The notes under the pieces: generated by a model | The model's database searches: none | The model's input: the letters and a program-made list of their open reading frames with translations, nothing else | Told to the model about the DNA's origin: nothing | Source of the DNA: a virus | Reading direction: 5' to 3' (one strand) | Length of the DNA: 38,981 nt | Virus record (IMG/VR): IMGVR_UViG_3300032163_000048 | Location: 1 to 38,981 of that record | Translations under genes and position numbers: made by a program | Shown here: piece by piece, positions 4,641 to 37,817 of the stretch | Numbering within the stretch: the first letter of the stretch is position 1 | Layout of the letters: every line of letters begins with the position of its first letter

Positions 4641-5342
4641 ATGTCGCTTGAAACTAAGGTACTTGGGAAAATTAGAGGGATTTTTTTAGATTTATTGCCA
4701 TCAGCAAGAGAGGATGAACAACTCCAACTTTCAGGTCAGGCAGAGCAACTTATTGCATTTGGGGCTGCTCCCTATCAGGAAATCGTGAGGCAAGGTAGGG
4801 CGTTTGTGGCGAATACCGCTACGGCAGTAGCTACCGTTGTGGCAATTCCGGCTACTGCCGTCTATGGGTTTATTATTTACAATAACGAAAGCGATGGCGG
4901 GCGTTCCTATATTCTGGATCGGGTGAGTGCACTTTATACCGTGAATAGTGGTGCTGCCCTTGCTCATGTCGGTATTATAGGATGTCTTGGCCTTGTTCGT
5001 GAGGCCGTCCCTACTGCGGCTGCGATAATTCCCAAACAGATGAATGGCATGGGTAATTCCGACACAAAGGCAAGGTTTGTTCTTACTGGTGATAATGCCT
5101 GGGGTTTGGGTGCTACCCTTGCTCCCCCAACGTCAGTTTTTACCTCGGCTTGGTTTCCGATTGGAAACTCAATCAATAGTGCGGTAAATGCCCTTCCTGG
5201 ATTTCAGACCGATGTTAATATTGATGGAAGGATTATCATACCGCCTGGCAGACTTTTTGCCGTTCACACCCTTGGTTCAGTCGTGACATCATCGGCACAG
5301 TTTTATATCTATTGGCACGAAAAAGTTATCCTTAATGGATAG
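4641..5342 (+). CDS. Tandem paralogue 1 of 3, putative virion surface protein
   Basis: This 233-residue protein has the shared motifs GKIRG near the start, GQAEQ, RQGRAF, YNNESDGGRSY, a short REAVP segment, WFPIG, and DGR with PPGRLF near the end. The composition (A, V, T, G, few charges) suggests an all-beta structural protein. It has no signal peptide, and AAGGAGG lies eight to nine bases before the ATG. The next two genes are clear paralogues. A capsid decoration or tail appendage role is inferred from context only. Confidence 0.72.
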   Translation: MSLETKVLGKIRGIFLDLLPSAREDEQLQLSGQAEQLIAFGAAPYQEIVRQGRAFVANTATAVATVVAIPATAVYGFIIYNNESDGGRSYILDRVSALYTVNSGAALAHVGIIGCLGLVREAVPTAAAIIPKQMNGMGNSDTKARFVLTGDNAWGLGATLAPPTSVFTSAWFPIGNSINSAVNALPGFQTDVNIDGRIIIPPGRLFAVHTLGSVVTSSAQFYIYWHEKVILNG

Positions 5343-5351
5343 GAGGTTGGC

Positions 5352-6035
5352 ATGGACACTGATGTAAAACTATTCGGCAAGATTCGGGGGCTGAATACGG
5401 ATGTACTTTATGGTGCAGGGAATGAAGAGACCGAGATAGAACTTACAGGACAGGCAGAACAGATTGTTGCTTCAGCATCCCCTTTCTATTCTGAGATTTC
5501 CAGACAAGGGAGATCCTTCTATATTAATACGGCTGCTGAAATTACCTCAGTCATAACAATGCCGACAACGGCTGTTGGATTCGCTATGTATAATAACGAA
5601 CCCGATGGGGGAAGATCCTATCTCATCGATCAGGTGTGGGCAATATTCACGGCCAATGCTTCTATATTACCCCAGGCGTGCCTTGTCGGTTGCCTTGGGT
5701 CTGTCAGGGAAGCTATCCCAACGGATGCCAAATCCACCACCGTTGTAATGAAAACTTACAATGGTAGTCCCAAGTTTGATTCCCGTTCAAGAGTCATCTT
5801 GACCGCTACAACCATTCCTGCCACGACTGGTTTTGCTGGTAACTGGTTTCCGATTACGGATATGTCCAATGCGGGCGTATCGGCTCTCCCAGGATTTCAA
5901 AGAGTTTATAATCTCGATGGAAGATACATCGTCCCACCTGGGAGATATTTCGGAATTCATTGTGTCAGTGCCAAAACAGATGTCCATTGTCAAATTGGGA
6001 TCGCATGGACAGAGAAATACTTAATTCTTGGATAG
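5352..6035 (+). CDS. Tandem paralogue 2 of 3, putative virion surface protein
   Basis: This 227-residue protein is the second copy of the family, with GKIRG, GQAEQ, RQGRSF, YNNEPDGGRSY, REAIP, WFPI, LPGFQ and DGRYIVPPGRYF all in the same order. It starts with its own SD (AGGAGG at 5341-5346) nine bases after the previous stop. The copies have diverged strongly between the motifs, so the duplication is old. A heteromeric assembly of the three is plausible. Confidence 0.72.
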   Translation: MDTDVKLFGKIRGLNTDVLYGAGNEETEIELTGQAEQIVASASPFYSEISRQGRSFYINTAAEITSVITMPTTAVGFAMYNNEPDGGRSYLIDQVWAIFTANASILPQACLVGCLGSVREAIPTDAKSTTVVMKTYNGSPKFDSRSRVILTATTIPATTGFAGNWFPITDMSNAGVSALPGFQRVYNLDGRYIVPPGRYFGIHCVSAKTDVHCQIGIAWTEKYLILG

Positions 6036-6044
6036 GAGGATTCA

Positions 6045-6719
6045 ATGAGTGAAATCGCTGTACTCGGAAAAGTAAGGGGAATAAATACAGACCAAGCCGA
6101 AGAGCCTGGGAGTGAATTTCTTCAATTTGCATTAAACGGTCAAGCAGAACAATTACAGGCTTGGGCTGCGACACAATATCAAGAAAATGTAAGACAAGGA
6201 AGAGCATTCTGGGTTGCTAACGCTATCGGTACTCCGGTTGCAGCCGTCACTGCGATACCCACCACGGCTGCTGCTATTTCCATTTATAACAATGAGCCAG
6301 ACGGGGGACGTTCTTATGTGATTGACTATGTGTGGGCTTTCAATGTGGCTGTAACTGCTGTCACAATTTTCCATGCGGGGATGATTGGAGTTTTGGGACA
6401 GGTCAGGGAAGCAATCCCCGCAGCCGGTGCACCAGTAATCAAATGTGCAAATGGATCAGGGAAAATTGATACCCGATGCAGACCCGTAATCGCTGCATTG
6501 CCGGCAGGAACAGGTCTGGCTGCAAATTGGTTCCCCATTGGGAATACATGGATTAACTCTGTCATTACCCTTCCCGGACATTCACAGATTGTCAATGTTG
6601 ATGGTCGCATTATTTGTCCTCCTGGAAGGTATTTTGGTGTCAATGTGATTTCATCGGTTACGACCAATACCTATATTTGTGGGATAGGATGGACTGAGAA
6701 ATGTTTAGTTTTAGGATAA
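6045..6719 (+). CDS. Tandem paralogue 3 of 3, putative virion surface protein
   Basis: This 224-residue third copy carries GKVRG, GQAEQ, RQGRAF, YNNEPDGGRSY, REAIP, WFPIG, LPGH and DGRIICPPGRYF. It is separated from copy 2 by nine bases with an AGGAGG SD, the same junction as between copies 1 and 2. This suggests duplication of a unit including its SD. Copies 2 and 3 share the ending TEKxLxLG, while copy 1 has HEKVILNG. The fold is unknown. Confidence 0.72.
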   Translation: MSEIAVLGKVRGINTDQAEEPGSEFLQFALNGQAEQLQAWAATQYQENVRQGRAFWVANAIGTPVAAVTAIPTTAAAISIYNNEPDGGRSYVIDYVWAFNVAVTAVTIFHAGMIGVLGQVREAIPAAGAPVIKCANGSGKIDTRCRPVIAALPAGTGLAANWFPIGNTWINSVITLPGHSQIVNVDGRIICPPGRYFGVNVISSVTTNTYICGIGWTEKCLVLG

Positions 6720-7703: not shown

Positions 7704-8085
7704 AAGTGATAACATAAAAGTAGCGGAAGAAAATTTGAGGGTTTTCAAGATTTTCGCCTCAGAACCGATTGGGGTGTTTCCAGAGGCAGAGGGTGTGGAT
7801 AAATTAAAAACCCTTTGGAGAATTCCCCCCTTTAAAAGACGGCTTTATATTGAAGAAATTCTTTCAAATCATGCGGTTGGTTTTGATAATGGGTTTGGAT
7901 ACAGTTGTTTTCGAGATAAACGACAGGCTCAATTATATGAAGAAGCACTTCCAGCTTATGTAGTGGTCAAAGAATTACGGATCCCAAAAGGAAGCCGATA
8001 TAGAATTGGGAAAATTGTGCAGGGAGAGTTGGGTACTGGTTTAACCATGTGTCAGGCCGAGCGATTAATGGGGGTTGGTGGCTGA
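7690..8085 (+). CDS. Conserved hypothetical phage protein
   Basis: This 131-residue protein has a C-terminal half with FGYSCFRDKRQA, then AYVVVKELRIPKGSRYRIG, a pattern I associate with uncharacterised phage proteins. The ATG at 7690 is preferred over a GTG at 7684 because AAGGG at 7677-7681 is well spaced. The last 14 bases form the 5' acceptor strand and the start of the D-arm of the tRNA that follows. Confidence 0.5.
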   Translation: MCLIESDNIKVAEENLRVFKIFASEPIGVFPEAEGVDKLKTLWRIPPFKRRLYIEEILSNHAVGFDNGFGYSCFRDKRQAQLYEEALPAYVVVKELRIPKGSRYRIGKIVQGELGTGLTMCQAERLMGVGG

Positions 8086-8154
8086 ATGGGAAGGCACTGT
8101 CTGAAAGGACAGGTCACGAAAGGTGTGTGGGTTCGAATCCTGCCCGATCCACCA
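8072..8154 (+). tRNA. tRNA with long variable arm and abnormal anticodon loop
   Basis: The acceptor strands GGGTTGG (8072-8078) and CCGATCC (8144-8150) pair with two wobbles, followed by A73 and an encoded CCA (8152-8154). A three-pair D-stem GCT/GGC, an anticodon stem CTGTC/GACAG (8097-8101/8108-8112), a 14-base variable arm and a T-arm with loop TTCGAAT are all present. The anticodon loop is TGAAAG, only six bases, or CTGAAAGG (eight) if the closing C-G pair opens. The likely anticodon is GAA. The long variable arm and A73 suggest Leu type, which conflicts with GAA. It overlaps the end of the preceding gene. Confidence 0.6.
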
Positions 8155-8172: not shown

Positions 8173-8382
8173 ATGCCACTTCTAAAAATATTTAAAAATA
8201 TGGTTAAGAAAGATGAGAAGGGCCCACTCGTTAACGAGAAATTCATTCAGGAATTAAAAGGACTTTCTGAAGACGATCTTAACATCATTGCTGATTCCGC
8301 CCCAGGCATGAGCAATGTTTATATTCAGGCTGAGAAGAAGAGAAGGGAAGATGAGAAGAAAAAAACTCAGGGGAATCAATGA
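8173..8382 (+). CDS. Small charged hypothetical protein
   Basis: This 69-residue helical protein has the segment GLSEDDLNIIADSAPG and a Lys/Glu-rich C-terminus. GGGAGG at 8162-8167 lies upstream of the ATG at 8173. The stop overlaps the start of the radical SAM gene (ATGA), so the two are probably co-translated and may work together. Confidence 0.55.
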   Translation: MPLLKIFKNMVKKDEKGPLVNEKFIQELKGLSEDDLNIIADSAPGMSNVYIQAEKKRREDEKKKTQGNQ

Positions 8383-9386
8383 CAGAAATTAGAAAGACAT
8401 TCTCCATCTGCAATGAATGTTATAAAAAGATTCCGGCGACTATCGTTTTGACGGATACGGTCGTTGAATTGCACAAAGAATGCTGTGGTCTTCTCCAAAA
8501 AGAAGTGATTGAGAAAAACAAAGAGTTTTACAATGCAATGGTTAATGCCCCTTACAATAACATCCTTGGGAACCTGTGTAATATAGCCATCACTGACGAC
8601 TGCAATAGTACCTGTAAGGCTTGCTATTGCAAGATCGAGAAGAAAGAGAAGAGTTTGGATGAGATCATGGGGATGTCATTTATCCTCCCCACATGGATAG
8701 ACAAGATCATGCTAACTGGCGGTGAACCCACCATCCATTCTCAATTTTTTGATATCGTAAGCAATCTCAACTGTGGCGTCATCACCAATGGAATAAAATT
8801 CGCTGACCTGAACTTTTTAAAAGAGTTTGCCCAGTTCAATGTCTATATGGCTGGTACGAACAATGAGATAGCAACGATGTTCTCATTGAATACGGAAGAT
8901 TCTCCTGATTATGGGGAGAAAATGTTAGCCATAGAAAACTTCAAGAGGATGGGGCTGAAATTAGCGATGGTATCCTCTACGATTACAGATCTCGATGAGA
9001 TACCAGGGGTTCTTTCTGAATTTAGAAAGATAAAGGATGTGGTCAGCACCTTCAAGATCAGGTCTGCTTTTAACATTGGGGAGAGTCAAGGATTCAAGCA
9101 CATCTATATCTCTGAGTTAATAAAAAAGGTGAAAGAGAATTGTGGGATTCTTAGATTCGTTCAGGGGATGCACACCAATACCTATCTCGTCAATATGAGA
9201 TGTGACGACATCCACCTGATGCTTGTCAAATGCCCTGATAAGACGATCATTGATCTATGCGATATCGGGCCAACAGGTCCCTATCAGCTCACCCATCTAA
9301 ATACTTTTGAAGATGTGGTGGTGGCCTTGATAGTCAATGAAGGGATAGAGAAGGGTTGGTTTAATGGAAGGAAAATAAATGACTGA
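8379..9386 (+). CDS. Radical SAM enzyme with N-terminal Cys knuckle
   Basis: This 335-residue protein has the [4Fe-4S]-binding motif C75-x3-C79-x2-C82 (CNSTCKACYC), a GGEP SAM-contact motif at residues 114-117 and a following ITNG strand. Together these are diagnostic of radical SAM enzymes. The N-terminus has an extra metal-binding pair, C11/C14 and C35/C36, as in radical SAM proteins that carry a small N-terminal ribbon. The C-terminus lacks a recognisable auxiliary cluster domain. The substrate is unknown. It is coupled to the genes before and after it. Confidence 0.8.
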   Translation: MTEIRKTFSICNECYKKIPATIVLTDTVVELHKECCGLLQKEVIEKNKEFYNAMVNAPYNNILGNLCNIAITDDCNSTCKACYCKIEKKEKSLDEIMGMSFILPTWIDKIMLTGGEPTIHSQFFDIVSNLNCGVITNGIKFADLNFLKEFAQFNVYMAGTNNEIATMFSLNTEDSPDYGEKMLAIENFKRMGLKLAMVSSTITDLDEIPGVLSEFRKIKDVVSTFKIRSAFNIGESQGFKHIYISELIKKVKENCGILRFVQGMHTNTYLVNMRCDDIHLMLVKCPDKTIIDLCDIGPTGPYQLTHLNTFEDVVVALIVNEGIEKGWFNGRKIND

Positions 9387-9576
9387 AATCCGATGCGTGA
9401 AATGTAATCGACTTTTATTTTTCGCTAACTTTAATGAAAAAATTGAAATTGAAATTAAATGTTCAAAGTGTCATTTCATAAATAAATTTAGGTTATTAAC
9501 AAAACAAGAAAAAATAAAAGAACAAATTGAAGAATTCAAGATATTTAGAGAAATGGTTGCAAAGGAATTATTTTAA
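9379..9576 (+). CDS. Mu Com-like zinc-finger regulator
   Basis: This 65-residue protein has the Mu Com signature: IRCVKCNRLLFFANF, then IEIKCSKCHFINKF, with C6, C9, C28 and C31 as zinc ligands. In phage Mu, Com binds mom mRNA and activates its translation; Mom modifies adenines. No mom gene is recognised here. It overlaps the end of the radical SAM gene by eight bases, so that gene or one nearby may be its target. A helical tail (residues 42-65) follows the finger. A strong terminator comes after. Confidence 0.72.
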   Translation: MTEIRCVKCNRLLFFANFNEKIEIEIKCSKCHFINKFRLLTKQEKIKEQIEEFKIFREMVAKELF

Positions 9577-9582
9577 ATAAGA

Positions 9583-9595
9583 GCCGTTCGACGGC
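9583..9595 (+). other. Small perfect hairpin before the terminator
   Basis: GCCGT/ACGGC arms enclose the three-base loop TCG. It lies between the Com-like gene and the main terminator, with no T-run of its own. It may pause polymerase, protect the transcript end or be a processing site. Confidence 0.4.
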
Positions 9596-9617
9596 CTAAT
9601 TTAAAGAGAGGTCTACG

Positions 9618-9659
9618 AGGCCCGTTTCAGGGATTAAAAACCCTGGCGGGCCTTTTTTT
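9618..9659 (+). terminator. Rho-independent terminator
   Basis: The outer stem AGGCCCG (9618-9624) pairs with CGGGCCT (9647-9653). An inner stem CAGGG/CCCTG (9628-9632/9641-9645) stacks within it, and a run of seven T follows (9653-9659). It closes the accessory block and separates it from the scaffold/capsid genes. Confidence 0.88.
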
Positions 9660-9688
9660 ATTTCAAATCAACGAAGGGAGGATTTTTT

Positions 9689-30350: not shown

Positions 30351-31196
30351 TTACGATTTTGCCATACTTTGATCACGACACATTCTATTTATAGAAGCTG
30401 GTCTTGCCCAAAACTTCTGAAATCTTTTCCATTCGTAATCAGTTCCTCCGTTTTTATTTCTATAAAGCATTGCCATCGGAAGAAATCCCGCCGAATATGC
30501 TTGTTTCATCCGTAGGTCTGCATCATTCAATGAATCTTTTGGATAACCCACCAAACAATAACAACGTATTTTGTGGCTTACTTCTCCTGTCTTGGTGAGG
30601 CCAATTCCAGCATCCCTCAACTTCTTACCCGCTTCAATGAGTGGTTCGAGGTCGTCCTCAGTATCATAGGCAAACCAAACCTGTTGGAGACGTATTTTCT
30701 TTAACTCGTCAATATGCCAAAATTGAAGACGCTTTGCTTCCCATCCACCAGAAAAATCTGCTGCCCTACTTTGTCGCCTAAGCATCTGGAACACTTTCTT
30801 TATATGAAAATCACTACAGGCAAGAAGATTGTCGTCAAGAATATTATAGCCTTCGTTTATTGAAAGTTCTCTAACGGTATTCCCATCTCTTTTCCATACT
30901 GAACAGAACCAACATCGATTAGGGCATCCTCTACTTGTAATCGTTGCGCCCTTTTTTACGAATCTGCCGGGAATAAAATCACCCCCAGGTATATCGAAAG
31001 CTGGCCCTCCTATCTTCACATCTCGATAGAATTTAGACCATGCTTTTAAAAGTCTTTCTCCTTCCTGAATATCCCATGTAAATAAAACCGAGATAGATAC
31101 AGAATCTTCTGGTGGCCTAAAGAGAGGAGGGTCTCCAACAAAAGCCAATTCATCATCGGGAGTCCATTTTGTTTTACGAGGAAATACTCTAATCAT
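30351..31196 (-). CDS. Radical SAM protein in the recombination operon
   Basis: This 281-residue protein has C91-x3-C95-x2-C98 within TSRGCPNRCWFCSVWKR, a radical SAM [4Fe-4S] motif of the SRGCPxxCxFC type. Later segments include IRLQQVWFAYDTEDDLEPLI and CYCLVGYPKDS, which fit barrel strands. The substrate is unknown. The Cys-motif context differs clearly from the radical SAM protein at 8.4-9.4 kb, so it is a separate acquisition. It overlaps the upstream gene (ATGA). Confidence 0.78.
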   Translation of the reverse strand: MIRVFPRKTKWTPDDELAFVGDPPLFRPPEDSVSISVLFTWDIQEGERLLKAWSKFYRDVKIGGPAFDIPGGDFIPGRFVKKGATITSRGCPNRCWFCSVWKRDGNTVRELSINEGYNILDDNLLACSDFHIKKVFQMLRRQSRAADFSGGWEAKRLQFWHIDELKKIRLQQVWFAYDTEDDLEPLIEAGKKLRDAGIGLTKTGEVSHKIRCYCLVGYPKDSLNDADLRMKQAYSAGFLPMAMLYRNKNGGTDYEWKRFQKFWARPASINRMCRDQSMAKS

Positions 31197-33107: not shown

Positions 33108-33347
33108 CTATCCATGCCTGTTCGGATTAGCGGACAACTCCGAGTTCATTCCGTGGACATTCTCTGCCTCTGGCTGAGAAAGACCCTTTCGAGTGGTTTC
33201 GGGGTTTAGGAATTCGGGCGCTCCTGACAAATGATTGTGGGATTCCAATTCGCAATCTTGACAAAATAAACAATTATGAAGCTCCCTGAGACAGAGAGTT
33301 TCTTTTTCTTTCTTCAACAATTCTTTAATTTGGTTTATATGCCCCAT
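33108..33347 (-). CDS. Small Cys-containing hypothetical protein
   Basis: This 79-residue protein has CLRELHNCLFCQDC (C19, C26, C29, C32), which could bind one metal with the later His residues. The C-terminal half is low-complexity and Pro/Asn-rich. It overlaps the upstream gene by 23 bases and has a weak SD. Confidence 0.4.
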   Translation of the reverse strand: MGHINQIKELLKKEKETLCLRELHNCLFCQDCELESHNHLSGAPEFLNPETTRKGLSQPEAENVHGMNSELSANPNRHG

Positions 33348-33858
33348 TACTTACTTTGACCTCTGGATATAAAGGTTTAATTGCCTCTTTAATTTCCTCG
33401 TCCGTTAAATTTCTTAGATAAGTGGCTTTTTTTACTCGAAATTTCCCATCTGAATTATATGGTATTGCTAAAATATCAGATGGATAAAACTCAAAAACGG
33501 CATAGGTTTTTGATAAATCATTGTTGGTTTCACTAAGACACCATTCCAAGGTGGCAAGATTAATACCTTTATCGCAGGGGATTCTGGAATCTGAATTTCC
33601 ATCTCCGCAAATATAAGTTCCTCCAATTTCATAAGTGAAATTTTGATATGGAGAAATTTGTCCATTGAGATATTTAAATCCTACCAATAAATTTTTTTGC
33701 CATTTTAGAAGAGATAAATTACTTGCAAATTGAGAAGGGATATTTTCGGCTTCCCTGAGATCGGCTCCCCAGAGATCGGCTTTAAATTTTTCCGCCAATT
33801 CTTTTAAGGTAAATTCACCTTCACAAATTAAATCACTATTTTTTCTCCTGATCTGCAT
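33325..33858 (-). CDS. Pentapeptide-like hypothetical phage protein
   Basis: This 177-residue protein has the short segment LWGADLREAENI, resembling a pentapeptide-repeat turn. The C-terminal half has VFEFYPSDILAIPYNSDGKFRVKKATYL, which I associate with uncharacterised phage proteins. SD GAGGG precedes the ATG. Function is not known. Confidence 0.5.
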   Translation of the reverse strand: MQIRRKNSDLICEGEFTLKELAEKFKADLWGADLREAENIPSQFASNLSLLKWQKNLLVGFKYLNGQISPYQNFTYEIGGTYICGDGNSDSRIPCDKGINLATLEWCLSETNNDLSKTYAVFEFYPSDILAIPYNSDGKFRVKKATYLRNLTDEEIKEAIKPLYPEVKVSNGAYKPN

Positions 33859-33963: not shown

Positions 33964-34170
33964 TCATGTAGCAATGGAAAGCAGAAGATCTAATGTGTGA
34001 TAACCATAAGGAATTTCATAAAATCCATCATTCTTTCTTGCCTCCATATTTCTCCAAAGATGAGTATCCTTAATGGAAGCCATAAGAACTTCAACCTTTT
34101 CTGGAATGATAGGATACCTTTCAATATGCCTAAACGGATTTGGTCTCAAATCTTTAACGGCTACTTTCAT
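33964..34170 (-). CDS. Truncated ParB-like domain protein
   Basis: This 68-residue protein matches the start of ParB/sulfiredoxin-fold proteins: LRPNPFRHIERYPIIPEKVEVL, then YEIPYGYHTLDLL where GHHR would be expected. The conserved catalytic-type GHxR is altered to GYHT, and the protein stops soon after, so it is a fragment or an unusually short form. It is the first gene after the leftward early promoter, with AAAGGAAA upstream. Confidence 0.55.
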   Translation of the reverse strand: MKVAVKDLRPNPFRHIERYPIIPEKVEVLMASIKDTHLWRNMEARKNDGFYEIPYGYHTLDLLLSIAT

Positions 34171-34199
34171 TTAGTTTCCTTTCTTCTTTGTTAATTTTA

Positions 34200-34216
34200 G
34201 TTAATGTCAGCTTAAC
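34200..34216. promoter_or_regulatory. Putative operator OL
   Basis: GTTAATGTCAGCTTAAC is an inverted repeat (GTTAA-N7-TTAAC). The minus-strand reading of 34534-34550 matches it at 14 of 17 positions. It overlaps the -10 of the leftward promoter, where a repressor would block polymerase. Confidence 0.6.
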
Positions 34217-34237
34217 AAAGCACAAATTATTTGTCAA
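34209..34237 (-). promoter_or_regulatory. Putative leftward early promoter (pL-like)
   Basis: On the minus strand TTGACA (34237-34232) is followed 17 bases later by TAAGCT (34214-34209). The surrounding sequence (TGCTTGAC ... TTGTTAAGCTG) recurs in the rightward promoter at 34513-34541. It faces the 27-34 kb operon and would start about 30 bases before the ParB-like gene. Confidence 0.6.
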
Positions 34238-34283
34238 GCATTATTTTAAAATATTTTGTTATTTTATTAAGTGTAGGAAATGA

Positions 34284-34532
34284 TTAAGGATGTTTCTGTT
34301 CGTAGAGCCAATCCAAGAATTCATTTAGTGAGTATCGATAAAAATCGAGAAGGGCATCCAAAATTGGTTGTGAAATAGGGGTTTCTCCGGTTTCCCAATG
34401 TTGAATGGAAACATGGGATCATTTCAATGCTTTGGCAGTATCTCTTTCAGCTTGTTTTCTGCTTTCTCTCATTTTCCTTAAAACAATTCCCCAATCAGGA
34501 TCAAAATAGTGCTTGACTTTTTCCATTGACAT
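34284..34532 (-). pseudogene. cI-type HTH repressor with an in-frame TGA
   Basis: The frame from the ATG at 34532 to TAA at 34284 gives 82 codons. It has Xre/cI-like helices: WGIVLRKMRESRKQAERDTAKALK, then TGA at 34419-34421, then SHVSIQHWETGETPISQPIL and YRYSLNEFLDWLY. SHVSIQHWE is the recognition-helix pattern. The stop falls between helices 2 and 3, exactly where one residue is expected; CGA (Arg) to TGA would explain it. TGA is used as a normal stop elsewhere here, so recoding is unlikely. The repressor is probably dead unless read through or miscalled. Confidence 0.7.
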
Positions 34533-34541
34533 TGTTAAGCT
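34513..34541 (+). promoter_or_regulatory. Putative rightward early promoter (pR-like)
   Basis: TTGACT (34513-34518) and TAAGCT (34536-34541) are 17 bases apart, the same spacing and flanks as the pL-like promoter. The expected start point is at or next to the ATG at 34551, so the Cro-like mRNA could be leaderless. Confidence 0.55.
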
Positions 34542-34550
34542 GTCCTTACC
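34534..34550. promoter_or_regulatory. Putative operator OR
   Basis: GTTAAGCTGTCCTTACC keeps the GTTAA-N7-TTA(A/C)C layout. It lies between the divergent repressor and Cro-like start codons and over the rightward -10. Confidence 0.55.
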
Positions 34551-34739
34551 ATGACTCTAAAAAATTATTTAAGAGAACAAAATTTAAGCATCAAAAGATT
34601 TTGCGAAGCCAATAGTTTTAATTATGGGTCAATCAGGGTTTTGCTGGCGAGAGGATATAACCCTTCTCCCAAACTGGCGCTTCGCATATCTAAGGCTACA
34701 AAGGGAAAAGTTTCAATTTTAGAACTTCTTTACCCTTAA
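34551..34739 (+). CDS. Cro-like HTH regulator
   Basis: This 62-residue protein is a compact helical DNA-binding domain: LKNYLREQNLSIKRFCEANSFNYGSIRVLLARG, then SPKLALRISKATKG and SILELL. The layout matches Cro/YdaS-type regulators. It diverges from the repressor gene with only 18 bases between start codons. No SD is visible, and the promoter position suggests a leaderless mRNA. It would compete with the repressor at OL/OR. Confidence 0.65.
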   Translation: MTLKNYLREQNLSIKRFCEANSFNYGSIRVLLARGYNPSPKLALRISKATKGKVSILELLYP

Positions 34740-36952: not shown

Positions 36953-37030
36953 ATGGGAGCCCTGATCGTTTTAATTTTTATTTTATGGTGGACTTTGGAA
37001 TTTACGGTTAAAGCAAATGGAAGAAATTAA
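36953..37030 (+). CDS. Tiny membrane peptide
   Basis: A 25-residue ORF with AGGAGAG upstream has the sequence MGALIVLIFILWWTLEF followed by a short polar tail. One hydrophobic helix spans most of it. It overlaps the nucleotidyltransferase start by 14 bases. Confidence 0.4.
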   Translation: MGALIVLIFILWWTLEFTVKANGRN

Positions 37031-37817
37031 ACTTAAAGGATTGTCATACGAAGAATGTAAGAATCTATTCCCCAAGGACATTATATTGGCGGGATATGTC
37101 GGAAGCATTTCTCATGGAACTTACATTATAAATTCTTACCCAAATAGCATTGATGATAAAGATGTGATGACGGTTTTTGTGAAAGACATTGAATATTATT
37201 GCGGTTTGGGTAGAGGAAGGGATACGAGAGAACTCAAAAAGAATGAATGGGATATCGTTGGTTATGAGATAAAAAAGTATATCTCATTGCTACTCAAATC
37301 AAATCCCAACGTAATGTCTTTGCTCTGGCTTCCCGAAAGAAATTATTTATATATAGGTAAATGTGGGCAAGCATTAAGAATGGAAAGAAATATTTTCATT
37401 AGCAAAAAAGCATATCATTCTTTTACAGGTTACGCATATGGGCAACTAAAGAGAATGGAACATTATAAATTTGAGGGATACATGGGAGAGAAAAGAAAAT
37501 CTCTTGTAGATAAATTTGGATATGACACAAAAAACGCTTCCCATCTAATACGTTTGCTTCGGATGGGAATAGAGTTTTTAACAGAGGGAAAATTGTATGT
37601 TGAGAGAGAAGATGCTCCACAACTGCTTCAAATTAAGAATGGAGAATGGGAGTTGGATCGAATCAAAAATGAGGCAGATCATTTATTTAAGATGGCTCAA
37701 GATGCCTATACACGATCCACCCTGCCAGATGAACCTGATTATCAAAAAGCAGAACAATTATTGATGTCTATCATTGGATATTATCACGAAATAGATAAAC
37801 TTATAAATTGGAATTAA
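37017..37817 (+). CDS. Predicted nucleotidyltransferase (RlaP / pol-beta type)
   Basis: This 266-residue protein has the polymerase-beta-type signature GS-x-SHGT (residues 29-35), followed by IDDKDVMTVFV with D47 and D49 as probable metal ligands. The rest (KKYISLLLKSNPNVMSLLWLP, HSFTGYAYGQLKRM, ASHLIRLLRMGIEFLTEG) matches the predicted RNA-ligase-associated nucleotidyltransferase family. No RNA ligase is seen in this window. Substrate could be RNA, tRNA, nucleotide or protein. Confidence 0.68.
   Translation: MEEIKLKGLSYEECKNLFPKDIILAGYVGSISHGTYIINSYPNSIDDKDVMTVFVKDIEYYCGLGRGRDTRELKKNEWDIVGYEIKKYISLLLKSNPNVMSLLWLPERNYLYIGKCGQALRMERNIFISKKAYHSFTGYAYGQLKRMEHYKFEGYMGEKRKSLVDKFGYDTKNASHLIRLLRMGIEFLTEGKLYVEREDAPQLLQIKNGEWELDRIKNEADHLFKMAQDAYTRSTLPDEPDYQKAEQLLMSIIGYYHEIDKLINWN

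Follow-up and report, generated by a model that had tools for sequence, protein, structure and literature searches.

The window, a single linear IMG/VR virus record (an uncultured contig) of 38,981 bases, carries a small repressor-like gene whose helix-turn-helix (HTH) domain is interrupted once by an in-frame TGA. The gene is flanked by two related promoter-like elements that both face outward, and a Cro-like gene diverges from it. We consider it probable that this phage became a clear or virulent form when its small HTH repressor, part of a lambda-like switch, recently acquired a nonsense codon. The features on which this reading draws are collected in Table 1.

Table 1. Features in and around the interrupted gene.
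Feature	Position	Strand	Remarks
Small XRE/HTH_31-type repressor-like gene, interrupted once	34284-34532	-	83 codons including its stop
In-frame TGA	34419-34421	-	Codon 38, directly 5' of the predicted recognition helix SHVSIQHWE
AAGGA, candidate ribosome-binding site of the interrupted gene	34543-34547	-	10 nt before its ATG; putative, from the sequence
PL-like element	34199-34247	-	AAAATAATGCTTGACA...TTGTTAAGCTGAC (end also TTGTTAAGCTGACATTAAC); TTGACA 34237-34232, 17-nt spacer, TAAGCT 34214-34209; putative function
PR-like element	34503-34551	+	AAAATAGTGCTTGACT...TTGTTAAGCTGTC (end also TTGTTAAGCTGTCCTTACC); TTGACT 34513-34518, 17-nt spacer, TAAGCT 34536-34541; putative function
Cro/DicC/YdaS-like small HTH gene	34551-34739	+	Faces away from the interrupted gene; PHROG_35 transcriptional repressor, E 7e-4
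Leading gene of the leftward block, next after the PL-like element	33964-34170	-	phrog_10048 protein, radical SAM, exonucleases further left

One HTH domain on both sides of a TGA

The minus-strand translation of 34532-34284 reads MSMEKVKHYFDPDWGIVLRKMRESRKQAERDTAKALK, the TGA, SHVSIQHWETGETPISQPILDALLDFYRYSLNEFLDWLYEQKHP and the terminal stop. Across its six reading frames the window contains 23 pairs of stop-separated open stretches that are at least as long; such pairs are thus common by chance, and the openness of the interrupted frame alone proves nothing. Homology is more telling. When an X was placed at the stop, the joined frame scored 32.1 bits against HTH_31 (PF13560) and 30.3 bits against HTH_3 (PF01381) over residues 15-72, above the Pfam gathering cut-offs of 27 and 23, respectively. 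The downstream half by itself scored 18.1 bits (HTH_31) and 22.7 bits (HTH_3), and the upstream half by itself had no match. This gain in score across the stop indicates that a single HTH domain, in a single frame, spans the two halves. The domain does not lie in one continuous open frame because of the TGA at codon 38. A six-frame HTH_3 search of the record, carried out through stops, returned the interrupted gene as the sole match (E 1.8e-8, with '1 TGA' inside). On either side of the TGA, codon usage points to the minus frame, by 14.5 bits upstream and by 6.8 bits downstream, the latter signal being weak because overlapping plus-strand frames score equally well. The best NCBIfam match of the gene is DicA (NF007257) at 21.7 bits, which misses the curated cut-off of 101 bits.

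The first-pass annotation had described a frame open on both sides of a single TGA, and this is confirmed: the HTH homology spans the stop, the gene has one lesion only, and its start codon and possible ribosome-binding site are intact. It had also placed the interruption just before the recognition helix; the HTH family alignment supports this, with the TGA (34421-34419) between predicted helix 2 and the recognition helix. An AlphaFold model of the read-through protein, made without an alignment, was poor (pLDDT 64.5, pTM 0.32) and was not used for helix placement. As to how the stop arose, a C-to-T change from CGA had been put forward. That is one possible origin, but several sense codons are one substitution away from TGA and nothing selects among them. 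No close intact relative was found among the searchable records of IMG/VR, GTDB genomes, phages or plasmids, from which those nearest to the window may be missing. The GTDB matches to the read-through protein were two distant actinobacterial HTH proteins only, and three IMG/VR contigs retrieved with DNA patterns in which the stop codon was left open proved unrelated.

Paired outward elements and a divergent Cro-like gene

The PL-like and PR-like elements are identical at 32 of 46 positions, a level that was equalled in one of 500 dinucleotide shuffles of the region. Both contain TTGACW-N17-TAAGCT, and the exact core TGTTAAGCTGNC occurs twice in the window, once in each element. As a -10 hexamer, TAAGCT fits the consensus poorly. 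A consensus promoter scan gave the number of sites expected by chance, with no excess, so that the promoter assignment rests on the pairwise match of the elements and not on the scan. An IMG/VR DNA search with the shared promoter element found no kin, nor were any relatives found of the nearby gene at 33325-33858.

The Cro-like gene is preceded by the PR-like element. Its product shares 38% identity with that of the L047 gene in the Cro position. The L047 gene matches phrog_35 (1.4e-12) and diverges from a repressor-like gene (phrog_12107), and the gene after it has weak CII-like matches. For the product of the window's gene itself, the family scores are weak, including 11.6 bits against YdaS_toxin with a cut-off of 30. 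The ATGs of the Cro-like gene and the interrupted gene are only 18 nt apart, so that the repressor's own promoter would have to overlap the Cro-like gene, a point against the proposed layout. At the sequence level, then, a repressor gene sits between two related outward elements with a divergent cro-like gene beside it. This supports a lambda-like plan of PL, repressor, PR and cro, in which either protein may bind the elements. The earlier suggestion that the immunity region is otherwise intact in appearance is upheld by the paired divergent promoter/operator-like elements and the divergent Cro-like gene.

If the TGA is a real base of the phage genome, as we infer, the following mechanism can be proposed. 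In an epsilon15/BPP-1-type podophage with a lambda-like switch, the intact frame would have encoded the small HTH repressor and served lysogeny by binding paired sites at both outward promoters and holding both off. The PL-like promoter would drive the leftward recombination block, and the PR-like promoter would drive the rightward block together with Cro. A nonsense change at codon 38, single and recent, would then have ended the protein after helix 2. Since such a protein ends before the recognition helix, a DNA-binding repressor would no longer be made; with Cro and the two promoters still in place, lytic development would be the only course left, making the phage a clear or virulent form.

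Affiliation of the phage and other features of the record

The phage groups with epsilon15/BPP-1-type podophages, with which it shares homologous head-tail connector and major capsid proteins; its capsid is about 30% identical to that of epsilon15. Podophages of this kind include well-known temperate members. The closest phage record is L039, with a capsid 65% identical. A large terminase was not recognised in the record, which is thus probably incomplete.

Several other features were seen in the record. A non-coding segment at 9575-9665, ahead of the gene that precedes the major capsid gene, is 89% identical to L039, compared with about 67% for the adjoining capsid DNA. Its folding is much stronger than that of shuffles (z -4.2) and gives a small hairpin, which shows two compensatory pair changes, followed by a strong terminator-like hairpin; the segment matched no Rfam family at gathering score. 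At 8072-8154 lies a tRNA gene that encodes its CCA end and has a 6-nt anticodon loop (TGAAAG) as well as a long variable arm. ARAGORN assigned it to Phe, although the short loop makes the anticodon ambiguous; the molecule resembles a tRNA-Ser minus one loop base. This tRNA gene is absent from the scanned parts of the L039 record. Three tandem paralogous genes of about 225-233 residues are located at 4641-6719, the second and third being 46-49% identical to the first; no PHROG match was obtained for the two that were searched. Two genes are radical SAM-like (8379-9386, which also has an HMPTM-type zinc ribbon, and 30351-31196). An RlaP-type RNA-repair nucleotidyltransferase (PF10127, 83 bits) is encoded at 37017-37817, between MT-A70 methyltransferase and RusA genes.

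Origin of the stop codon and its meaning

The main rival to a recent nonsense change is an artefact: the TGA would have come from faulty sequencing, amplification or assembly, or from a minority variant taken into the consensus, and the repressor of the real phage would be intact. The record is one uncultured contig, and its only other oddity, the 6-nt anticodon loop of the tRNA gene, could likewise be an error. Against this, no frameshift or nonsense lesion was found in the phage proteins (structural genes) compared with L039, which argues for good assembly, and none is evident in the other annotated genes of the record. It would also be a coincidence for an isolated erroneous substitution to hit a gene whose loss is plausibly selected. 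We regard an artefact as unlikely, while taking it seriously.

It is more doubtful that the frame is a relic or an accessory HTH gene (for example antitoxin-like) rather than the lysogeny repressor, in a phage that is already lytic or has another regulator. The short protein (82 codons, HTH only, with no C-terminal domain) and the failure to find a tyrosine or serine integrase (PF00589, PF00239) in the record or its relative are points against the repressor reading and favour this one. So do the weak similarity of the frame to MqsA-type antitoxins and other XRE regulators and the lack of a homologue in L039. But a site between matching outward promoter-like elements, beside a Cro-like gene, is the position of a lambda-type repressor, and no second HTH_3 gene was found in the record.

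The first-pass annotation had also allowed that the stop may be suppressed, and this fared poorly. Read-through at some level would yield a little full-length repressor and a tuned switch, and the frame past the stop does keep its HTH homology with no second lesion; a recent mutation accounts equally well for that intact remainder, and no relative has a conserved stop. TGA terminates 10 of the 25 tallied genes, including RusA, whose Pfam match stops two residues before its own TGA, so the code is standard; no internal TGA occurs in 8535 codons (in frames that were chosen as open). No opal-suppressor tRNA was found in the record, its sole tRNA not being one. Suppression is therefore very unlikely, and even less credence is due to a maintained, partly read-through UGA that limits the repressor dose and lets the level of host UGA read-through set lysis or lysogeny. 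An alternative code with TGA as sense (table 4 or 25) is ruled out by the TGA-terminated genes and the lack of an opal suppressor tRNA. There is no in-frame ATG, GTG or TTG early in the downstream half for re-initiation. Most likely, then, the product is only a 37-residue fragment without the recognition helix and the repressor is lost. The intact start codon, possible ribosome-binding site and remaining frame suggest that the change is recent.

The preferred reading, a recent loss of the repressor, can be compared with known systems. As in the lambda immunity region (OL/PL - cI - OR/PR - cro), a repressor gene lies between matching outward promoters with a divergent Cro-like gene; unlike in lambda, the repressor consists of an HTH alone (82 codons) and is interrupted, the two starts are 18 nt apart, and the operators are predicted from sequence alone. 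A short XRE repressor divergent from a DicC/YdaS-like protein also recalls the DicA-DicC and RacR-YdaS pairs of E. coli defective prophages, but the DicA and YdaS_toxin cut-offs are both missed here. The structural kinship with epsilon15/BPP-1-type podophages does not extend to the regulator, which has no detectable similarity to theirs, and no integrase was found in what is probably an incomplete record. Nonsense mutants of phage repressors are textbook biology. In the TP901-1 clear-plaque mutant C3, cI is cut short early by a nonsense mutation at the HTH, two residues past the recognition helix, and the phiLC3 repressor carries a stop codon (PMC4892519). Like these, the phage described here has a single premature stop in its putative repressor; unlike them, it is an uncultured contig known from its sequence and not a laboratory isolate with a known phenotype.

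No new mechanism is added by this case: both the mutation and the switch would be of ordinary kinds. Provided that the stop is real, the record would represent a natural repressor-null phage in a metagenome, caught soon after repressor loss with its operator-like elements and Cro kept. It would also serve as a warning that annotation ending at the first stop codon misses broken repressor genes, and it would illustrate how lytic variants originate from temperate lineages.
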